DNA of 64,000 nucleotides from Janthinobacterium sp. 61 (GTDB lineage: Bacteria; Pseudomonadota; Gammaproteobacteria; Burkholderiales; Burkholderiaceae_D): positions 4,712,001-4,776,000 of the forward strand of contig NZ_PJMQ01000001.1 in assembly GCF_002846335.1 (NCBI RefSeq), in the 5' to 3' direction. Made by a program: the position numbers and the translations under genes. The notes beneath the pieces are model-generated. The model saw only the letters and a program-made list of their open reading frames with translations. It was not told the DNA's origin and searched no databases. The first letter of the stretch is position 1. Every line of letters begins with the position of its first letter. This document shows, piece after piece, positions 54,101 through 56,031 of the stretch.

Positions 54101-55350
54101 AAGTACCGTACGGTGCGACCCTGATCGTCAAGGACGGCATGGTCATCAAGGCCGGTACGGCCCTGGCAACGTGGGATCCGCTGACCCGCCCGATCATTAC
54201 CGAATACGCCGGTCAAGTGCGTTTCGAGAACGTCGAAGAAGGCGTCACCGTAGCCCGTCAGGTCGACGAAGTGACCGGTCTGTCCACCCTGGTGGCGATC
54301 GATGCGAAACGTCGCGGTTCGCTGACGAAAACGTTGCGTCCGCAAGTCAAGCTGATCAACGACGCGAACGAAGAAGTCAAGATCGCCGGCACCGAACACT
54401 CGGTGGCGATCGGCTTCCAGGTCGGCGCGCTGATCATGGTGAAAGACGGTCAACAGGTATCGGTTGGTGAAGTGCTGGCACGTATTCCTACCGAATCGCA
54501 AAAAACGCGCGATATTACCGGTGGTCTGCCACGCGTTGCGGAACTGTTCGAAGCGCGCTCGCCGAAAGATGCCGGTATGCTGGCGGAAGTCACGGGTACC
54601 GTTGCGTTCGGTAAAGAAACCAAGGGCAAGCAGCGTCTGGAAATCACGGACATGGACGGCAACAAGCATGAGTTCTTGATTACCAAGGACAAACAAGTGC
54701 TGGTGCATGACGGCCAAGTCGTGAACAAGGGCGAGATGATCGTGGACGGCCCTGCCGATCCGCAAGACATCCTGCGCCTGCTGGGTATCGAAGCACTGGC
54801 ACGTTACATCGTTGACGAAGTGCAAGACGTGTACCGTCTGCAAGGCGTGAAGATCAATGACAAGCACATCGAAGTGATCGTGCGTCAGATGCTGCGCCGT
54901 GTTCAGATCGTCAATGCCGGCGACACCAACTACATCGTTGGCGAGCAGGTTGAGCGTTCGGAACTGCTGGACGAGAACGATCGCATGGCTGTTGAGAACA
55001 AGATTCCAGCGACCTACGAAAACGTCTTGTTGGGTATTACCAAGGCATCGCTGTCGACCGATTCGTTCATCTCGGCCGCATCGTTCCAGGAAACCACCCG
55101 CGTGCTGACCGAAGCGGCGATCATGGGCAAGCGCGATGGTCTGCGCGGCCTGAAAGAGAACGTCATCGTCGGCCGTCTGATTCCTGGCGGTACGGGCCTG
55201 GCCTTCCACCGCGCACGCAAAGAGAAAGAAGCGTGGGAAGTGGAAGAGCGTCAAGCCCTGCTGCTGGCCGAGAAAGCCTCGATGGCTGGCGAAGCTGCCG
55301 AAGCGCTGCAAGATATCGAAAGCCAGCAACACCACGGCGACGAAGCGTAA
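51109..55350 (+). CDS. rpoC: RNA polymerase beta' subunit
   Basis: Catalytic subunit of RNA polymerase, 1413 residues. The N-terminal zinc site has [20 protein letters not shown], the active-site loop [14 protein letters not shown] carries the three Mg-binding Asp, and a second zinc site includes [17 protein letters not shown] good ribosome site (CTGGAG) precedes the ATG. The extreme C-terminus, [11 protein letters not shown], is copied three more times downstream with the stop codon and terminator. The gene itself looks intact. Confidence 0.99.
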
Positions 55351-55371
55351 TTTACGCTGTCAGCTGACAAG

Positions 55372-55398
55372 AACGGCACCTTCGGGTGCCGTTTTTTT
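55372..55398 (+). terminator. rpoC terminator (first of four)
   Basis: Stem AACGGCACC / GGTGCCGTT with a UUCG loop, then a T tract. It lies 21 bases after the rpoC stop. A GTCAGCTGAC palindrome sits just upstream (55359-55368). Confidence 0.96.
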
Positions 55399-55609
55399 AT
55401 GCTTTACGGCGCCTTTCCACCGCACACGCAAGGAGAAGGCGGCGTGGGAAGTGGCGGAGTTTCCAGCCCCGCTGCTGGCCGATAAAGCCACCCTGGCCAG
55501 TGAAACCACCGAAGAGCTGCTAGCCATCGAAAGCCATCTACACCATGGCGACGAAGCGTAATTTACGCGGTCAGCTGACAAGAACGGCACCTTCGGGTGC
55601 CGTTTTTTT
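55399..55609 (+). repeat. Tandem unit A: diverged copy of the rpoC 3' end plus terminator
   Basis: First of three 211-bp units. It encodes, in an intact frame with no start codon, PFHRTRKEKAAWEVAEF and onward to the end IESHLHHGDEA and a TAA, against [16 protein letters not shown]...[11 protein letters not shown] in RpoC. By eye about 28 of 147 coding bases differ from rpoC, and only about four of those are silent, yet there is no indel or stop after the FHR motif. Its stop-to-terminator part differs from the rpoC copy at a single position. A relic duplicate is the plain reading. Confidence 0.93.
55583..55609 (+). terminator. Terminator copy in unit A
   Basis: Identical to the rpoC terminator, 211 bp further on; UUCG loop and T tract kept. 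Confidence 0.93.
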
Positions 55610-55820
55610 ATGCCTTACGGCGCCTTTCCACCGCACACGCAAGGAGACGGCGGCGAGGGAAGTGGCGGAGTTTCAAGCCCCGCTGCTGGCCGATAAAGCC
55701 ACCCTGGCCAGTGAAACCACCGAAGAGCTGCTAGCCATCGAAAGCCAGCAACACCACGGCGACGAAGCGTAATTTACGCGGTCAGCTGACAAGAACGGCA
55801 CCTTCGGGTGCCGTTTTTTT
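55610..55820 (+). repeat. Tandem unit B: diverged copy of the rpoC 3' end plus terminator
   Basis: Second 211-bp unit. The frame reads PFHRTRKETAAREVAEF and ends [11 protein letters not shown], so its tail matches RpoC again while unit A's does not, and the Trp kept in rpoC and unit A is Arg here. This mosaic pattern suggests recombination between copies. A 75-codon reading frame that starts in unit A crosses it, but it has no ribosome site. Confidence 0.93.
55794..55820 (+). terminator. Terminator copy in unit B
   Basis: Identical stem, UUCG loop and T tract, exactly 211 bp after the previous one. Confidence 0.93.
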
Positions 55821-56031
55821 ATGCCTTACGGCGCCTTTCCACCGCACACGCAAGGAGAAGGCGGCGAGGGAAGTGGCGGAGTTTCAAGCCCCGCTGCTGA
55901 CCGATAAAGCCACCCTGGCCAGTGAAACCACCGAAGAGCTGCTAGCCATCGAAAGCCAGCAACACCACGGCGACGAAGCGTAATTTACGCGGTCAGCTGA
56001 CAAGAACGGCACCTTAGGGTGCCGTTTTTTT
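55821..56031 (+). repeat. Tandem unit C: diverged copy of the rpoC 3' end plus terminator
   Basis: Third 211-bp unit, nearly identical to unit B (differences include GGC to GAC in the LLADK region, now LLTDK). The frame ends [11 protein letters not shown] and TAA. After its terminator the sequence changes abruptly to AT-rich DNA. Confidence 0.93.
56005..56031 (+). terminator. Terminator copy in unit C
   Basis: Same stem and T tract, but the tetraloop is UUAG instead of UUCG, so the hairpin is slightly less stable. Confidence 0.9.

Follow-up and report, generated by a model that had tools for sequence, protein, structure and literature searches.

Tandem intrinsic terminators stand behind strong operons. 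The locus downstream of rpoC in Janthinobacterium sp. 61 resembles them in that several predicted hairpin and T-run terminators follow a highly expressed operon in series; it differs in that each terminator brings along 49 codons of the upstream gene, the periods are exactly 211 bp and the copy number varies between species. In part it also resembles tandem partial gene duplications under concerted evolution, where copies are alike within a genome and a divergent segment is common across species; here, however, an essential gene's own 3′ end serves as one of the copies, and the rpoC-like parts lie mainly at the 3′ end of the unit and, in some species, also at its 5′ end. Silent gene cassettes, such as pilS and vls, likewise consist of promoterless 3′ gene fragments beside an expressed copy, but in the present case no transfer into rpoC was found among 31 aligned rpoC genes and the frames have decayed. 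No publication on rpoC-tail arrays was found by title or abstract start in the open-access literature.

In the core defence hotspots of Pseudomonas aeruginosa, defence genes are collected at a fixed core-gene site, and their transfer is suggested to proceed by homologous recombination, leaving no mobile-element scar (PMC10250203). The portion of that article drawn on here does not mention rpoC, and leaves as a question the way in which defence genes come together at such a site when no integrase is involved. Compared with the hotspots as that portion describes them, other Oxalobacteraceae genera differ by a second rpoC tail that is left in some genomes.

With a probability of about 0.6, we regard the array as a non-coding repeat that arose long ago when the 3′ end of rpoC was duplicated together with its terminator, that has been turned over and homogenised by recombination, and whose effect would be that of four terminators in a row.

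The array in the Janthinobacterium sp. 61 window

The window is the whole stretch of 64,000 nucleotides that was analysed; the genome is one 6.0 Mb contig, and the copy number is given as assembled. Within the 64-kb window, TRF reports an array at 55204-56037 with a period of 211, 4.0 copies, 93% matches and a score of 1423, against a score of 83 for the next best array, and a separate repeat search finds four copies with a spacing of exactly 211. Both searches bear out the exact 211-bp spacing that a sequence-only reading of this DNA had described for four terminators. The array is composed of the end of rpoC (copy 0) and three downstream units, each consisting of the tail, a TAA stop codon and a terminator. 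The features are as follows.

51109..55350, + strand: rpoC (1413 aa), from which the repeat derives (ORF list; tail compared with relatives)
55204..55414, + strand: copy 0, the last 49 rpoC codons (stop included), its terminator and the joint (TRF, repeat search)
55370..55398, + strand: predicted rpoC intrinsic terminator
55415..55625, + strand: unit 1, a copy read as non-coding; 28 of 147 coding positions differ (repeat search, alignment)
55581..55609, + strand: predicted unit 1 terminator
55626..55836, + strand: unit 2; 26 of 147 differ (repeat search, alignment)
55792..55820, + strand: predicted unit 2 terminator
55837..56037, + strand: unit 3, the last unit; 26 of 147 differ; other DNA follows its terminator
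56003..56031, + strand: predicted unit 3 terminator
56561..57193, + strand: next same-strand gene, resembling winged-helix regulators (MarR_2 and HTH, each matched with a score under the Pfam cut-off)
57267..58109, + strand: HDOD-domain protein gene (ORF list, Pfam)

The differences from the rpoC tail are split over the three codon positions as 7/9/12 in unit 1, 8/8/10 in unit 2 and 9/7/10 in unit 3; they mostly change amino acids, and the rpoC frame is open in each of the three units. Over the first 53 nt past the stop codon, units 1, 2 and 3 differ from rpoC at only 2, 2 and 3 positions, respectively, of which 1, 1 and 2 fall before the end of the T-run. Units 1 and 2 differ from each other at 6 of 211 positions. 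Further, unit 1 combines the Trp codon with HL, units 2 and 3 combine Arg with QQ, and rpoC itself has Trp with QQ. These comparisons agree with what had been noticed from the letters: roughly 28 of 147 coding differences in the first unit, frames free of stops and indels, a nearly identical stretch from stop to terminator, and a Trp codon that segregates differently from the QQ/HL tail.

A GC-rich hairpin followed by a T-run is predicted in all four copies, with folding energies of -22.4, -21.2, -21.2 and -21.4 kcal/mol (z from -3.4 to -4.9); a search of Rfam gave no match at the gathering score. When unit 2 was used as the query against the 6.0 Mb genome, with 40 of 59 candidates scored, the sole hit outside the four copies was a match of 38 nt (84%) to the hairpin end of the unit.

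Distribution and history of the units in Janthinobacterium

A search of 40 Janthinobacterium genomes gave a match in 38, and 37 rpoC loci were used, the rpoC of G022 being cut off at a contig end. Units are present in 12 of the 37 loci, with three units in G000, G010, G012 and G018, two in G019, G001 and G015, and one in G032, G007, G024 (partial), G033 and G016. A profile search detects remnants in G005, G008 and, weakly (E 0.001), G035. The other 22 loci contain neither a unit nor a relic, so the array is dispensable. By eye, the carriers are scattered on a tree that was built from rpoBC only, in quick mode, and that has 13 of its 34 inner branches open. Across the 37 loci (2.6 kb scanned), nothing beyond short filler lies between units, and the DNA past the last G019 unit aligns with the DNA past the rpoC terminator of the unit-less G038 (615 nt, 75%).

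Two side observations concern the neighbourhood of these loci. In L052 (G032), a short piece of ordinary downstream DNA and a second T-run separate the rpoC terminator from the unit. An FAD-monooxygenase gene, identified by a Pfam match over 70 residues of the G004 ORF, and a gene that is TetR-like by eye lie downstream of rpoC in six genomes that are not grouped together on the rpoBC tree (G004 (L061), G017, G030, G036, G014 and G035); in the first five, the FAD-monooxygenase gene is convergent and stands beside a single terminator. These five would fit the idea that arrays go with a downstream gene oriented like rpoC; several co-directional genomes also have a single terminator, however, and on this inspection the idea was dropped.

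At nine columns in the middle segment of the unit, one state is shared by 75% or more of the core units, which number 21, in 8 to 10 genomes each, and is found in none of 31 aligned rpoC genes, an alignment from which six outer rpoC genes were left out. Core-clade units occur in 10 genomes. The absence of these nine unit-specific states from the aligned rpoC genes indicates that the duplication is old. The units of G033 and G016 have the rpoC states at the same columns, and therefore may be a separate duplication.

The two parts of the unit have different closest relatives. Over the middle segment, the 21 units have an identity of 0.70 to their own rpoC and 0.81 to the units of other species. 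From stop codon to terminator, 18 of the 21 core units were compared, excluding three truncated ones, and their identity is 0.96 to their own rpoC and 0.87 to the rpoC of other species; to the units of other species it is 0.90 on average, with the best-matching unit averaging 0.96. The greater closeness to the genome's own rpoC supports a homogenisation of the units' 3′ part by rpoC, short of proof because the segment is short and conserved and the best unit of another species also reaches 0.96. Moreover, the best unit pairs inside one genome are 0.97-0.98 alike in G010, G012 and G018, and recombination probably keeps the array uniform. The history proposed from the sequence was an old duplication followed by amplification and exchange between copies. 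It finds support in the presence of units at 12 of the 37 loci, in the nine shared states, in the near-identical units within several genomes and in 3′ segments that are closer to their own rpoC than to the rpoC of other species.

The units have no coding constraint. Among seven units from seven genomes, the variable sites number 16, 13 and 18 at the three codon positions (36 sites each), compared with 2, 0 and 6 in rpoC of the same genomes (Fisher, p = 0.07). Of 23 units, 13 have a frame that is broken, truncated or degraded, with at least one such unit in 8 of 12 genomes; the remaining 10 are open in one frame by the author's reading, or 9 of 23 by a script count. Judged by these frames and by changes that are even over codon positions, the units are non-coding. 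The suggestion that they are a silent store of alternative RpoC C-termini, recombined into rpoC, would accord with the open frames and amino-acid changes of the window units, but it has become hardly credible in view of the decayed frames in relatives, the even codon spread and unit-type states in 0 of 31 rpoC genes; with no examined rpoC carrying a unit-type tail, the store is unsupported. Frameshifts in the units of relatives, which the sequence-only reading had named as evidence that would leave only a neutral duplication, do occur; they count against the coding idea and leave the terminator idea standing.

Second rpoC tails in other Oxalobacteraceae genera

A search of 392 genomes of the family for the rpoC C-terminus gave 355 with a match at E 0.1 or better; 38 of these belong to the genus and 317 to other genera, at least four of the latter matching only weakly. 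There is more than one match in 42 other-genus genomes, and in 10 of the 317 a second rpoC tail lies downstream on the same strand. The distance from rpoC to the nearest copy is about 2.0-6.5 kb in G129, G328, G373, G252, G384, G190 and G366, 0.8 kb in G260, and within 0.5 kb in G385 and G334. In eight of the genomes compared the copy reaches a 3′ end, and in 7 of these homology to rpoC ends no more than 2 nt from where the T-run ends; it runs further in G385 and stops before the stop codon in G190, and in G260, which is outside this comparison, it ends at +57. An origin from reverse-transcribed rpoC mRNA, with a variable 5′ end and a 3′ end at the terminator, was set aside, the ten copies, all strong or confirmed, lying downstream of rpoC on its own strand.

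Second rpoC matches elsewhere are weak, whole-gene, or on small contigs (G321, G108, G187). G321 has two rpoC-length matches about 225 kb apart (G321:C1:4569616 and 4794201), reflecting a whole-gene duplication or an assembly effect. In L093 (G238:C155), rpoC is seemingly broken or split near its end, and a degraded tail, a pentapeptide-repeat gene and a nucleotidyltransferase-domain gene lie downstream. An order-wide sample of 399 genomes gave 355 with a match, among them 13 Oxalobacteraceae; a second rpoC-tail match was found in 0 of the 342 Burkholderiales genomes outside the family at E 1e-5, a threshold that could overlook a tail which has decayed or diverged. As for carriers of tails, matches occur in 67 plasmid and 15 phage records, and those listed (15 plasmid records) come from other bacteria and point to no carrier.

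The DNA between rpoC and the second tail holds varied genes. According to PADLOC and Pfam, the insert of G328 (L085) has AriA/AriB-like and Hp1/Hp2 matches, that of G373 (L086) has a GmrSD_N (NsnA-like) protein adjoining an HEPN protein, and that of G252 (L087) has an NsnB-like ATPase. Matches akin to anti-phage defence genes are thereby present in three of five Pfam-scanned inserts, four of which were also searched with PADLOC. Further, the G190 insert (L090) encodes a VgrG-type protein of type VI secretion, the G129 insert (L084) a TraB-family protein and one unmatched ORF, and the G384 insert (L088) ORFs that are curlin-like by eye. Inserted DNA also lies between rpoC and the second tail in G366 (L092) and G260 (L096). 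Pfam found no integrase in 17 ORFs, the longer ones, of the G328, G373, G252, G190 and G129 inserts.

A bolder reading connects these copies with the Janthinobacterium arrays. The rpoC 3′ end and its terminator would be an integrase-free docking site, where DNA carrying an rpoC 3′ fragment enters by homologous recombination, the gene is left whole, the tail is duplicated and the cargo is insulated between two terminators, in the order [rpoC + terminator][cargo][rpoC tail + terminator]. Cargo stored at the site would include defence-like and type VI secretion genes, and the 211-bp arrays would be the cargo-free, self-amplifying scar of this wider Oxalobacteraceae process, with units remaining where cargo was lost or never present. 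We hold this reading only tentatively and judge it rather unlikely. The ten same-strand copies and the sharp 3′ borders at the T-run point towards it, and it draws above all on two insertions with empty sites: the DNA after the G252 copy follows the rpoC terminator directly in G298 (position 48 after the stop), and the DNA from 9 nt past the last G328 copy starts at position 71 in G360 and G390. In the 3′ segments, differences from rpoC fall at third codon positions in 6 of 6 cases in both the distal G328 copy and the G252 copy, and in 3 of 4 in the G129 copy, although the test is weakened by the post hoc choice of these three copies and by a classing that left aside upstream pieces, more diverged, in the G129 and G252 copies; the other 7 of the 10 copies have mixed codon-position changes. 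Terminator-like matches without a tail at L101 (G206; +2567..+2598 after the rpoC stop, 32 nt) and L110 (G158; +1252..+1302, 51 nt) are possibly the last remains of a tail copy.

Clear results stand against docking. No empty site was found in the other seven genomes tested (G260 being outside the test), and some insertions lack a tail copy. The sequence found behind the G328 copy is placed 1.9 kb downstream of rpoC in G374 and 4.3 kb downstream in G386; the sequence found behind the G252 copy is placed about 2.6 kb downstream in G206, where the 32-nt match sits at that border, and 2.9 kb downstream in G104. In none of these four was a tail copy found in between. The curlin-like DNA of G384 stands directly after rpoC in G374, G386 and G388, where a second tail was not found. 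Copies in other genera have 5′ starts that vary from -239 to -1043, as opposed to starts near -150 for most Janthinobacterium units, and the units of the genus have mere filler between them. Nor was a donor rpoC with a unit-type tail found among the matches listed from 294 family genomes, the best of which are the genus's ordinary rpoC genes, at no more than 85%. Integration at tRNA genes or icd produces a gene-3′-end duplication that flanks cargo, and the duplicated rpoC ends look similar; yet that they are att-site remnants of an integrase-borne island using the rpoC 3′ end is improbable, considering the lack of integrase matches in the five scanned inserts and the variable copy starts, which imply that the crossover core is not constant. 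If docking were true, the second tails would be a visible recombination scar for an integrase-free gathering of defence genes at a core-gene site.

Predicted stacked terminators and the neutral alternative

By the author's heuristic scan, 14 of 37 genomes have at least two hairpin terminators ahead of the next gene. The hairpin of the rpoC terminator is short in core-clade genomes and longer in the 11 outer ones, and the distal relics of G001, G005, G008, G010 and G024 retain the longer type. All five genomes that keep a distal relic still have a predicted hairpin with its T-run there, and the G008 relic has a paired change in both arms (C to T and G to A). Across four relics, 6 of 37 hairpin columns are variable compared with 39 of 118 in the flanks, a difference that is not significant (p = 0.06).

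Our preferred reading of the array is consistent with these observations. The duplicated 3′ end of rpoC, terminator included, would have been placed at the terminator's T-run; copy number would then have gone up and down by recombination between copies, presumably by unequal crossing-over or gene conversion, and exchange with rpoC would have kept the 3′ part, from stop to terminator, like that of the host. At present, four serial intrinsic terminators would reduce the transcription that reads through from rpoBC into the regulator gene, which is co-directional. Termination in several stages is the likeliest effect of the array and, given the predicted hairpins, a plausible best candidate for a function, with selection for it unproven. 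The multi-stage terminator of the sequence-only reading is accordingly possible on the side of its hairpins and weakly evidenced on the side of conservation.

The competing explanation is a purely neutral tandem duplication with concerted evolution, in which the array is useless, is often lost, and survives because rpoC is a permanent template for its re-homogenisation. We consider it a possible account, held at somewhat less than even odds. The 22 genomes without unit or relic, the lack of coding constraint and the non-significant conservation of the relic hairpins are what it would predict; the hairpins and T-runs that persist in five distal relics, one with a paired change, and the presence of units in 10 core genomes are harder to reconcile with it.

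Overall, on the reading that we prefer, an essential gene would lend its end as an enduring template to a repeat whose copy number shifts over genus-level time, and the Janthinobacterium loci would form a natural series in which the behaviour of stacked terminators could be measured.
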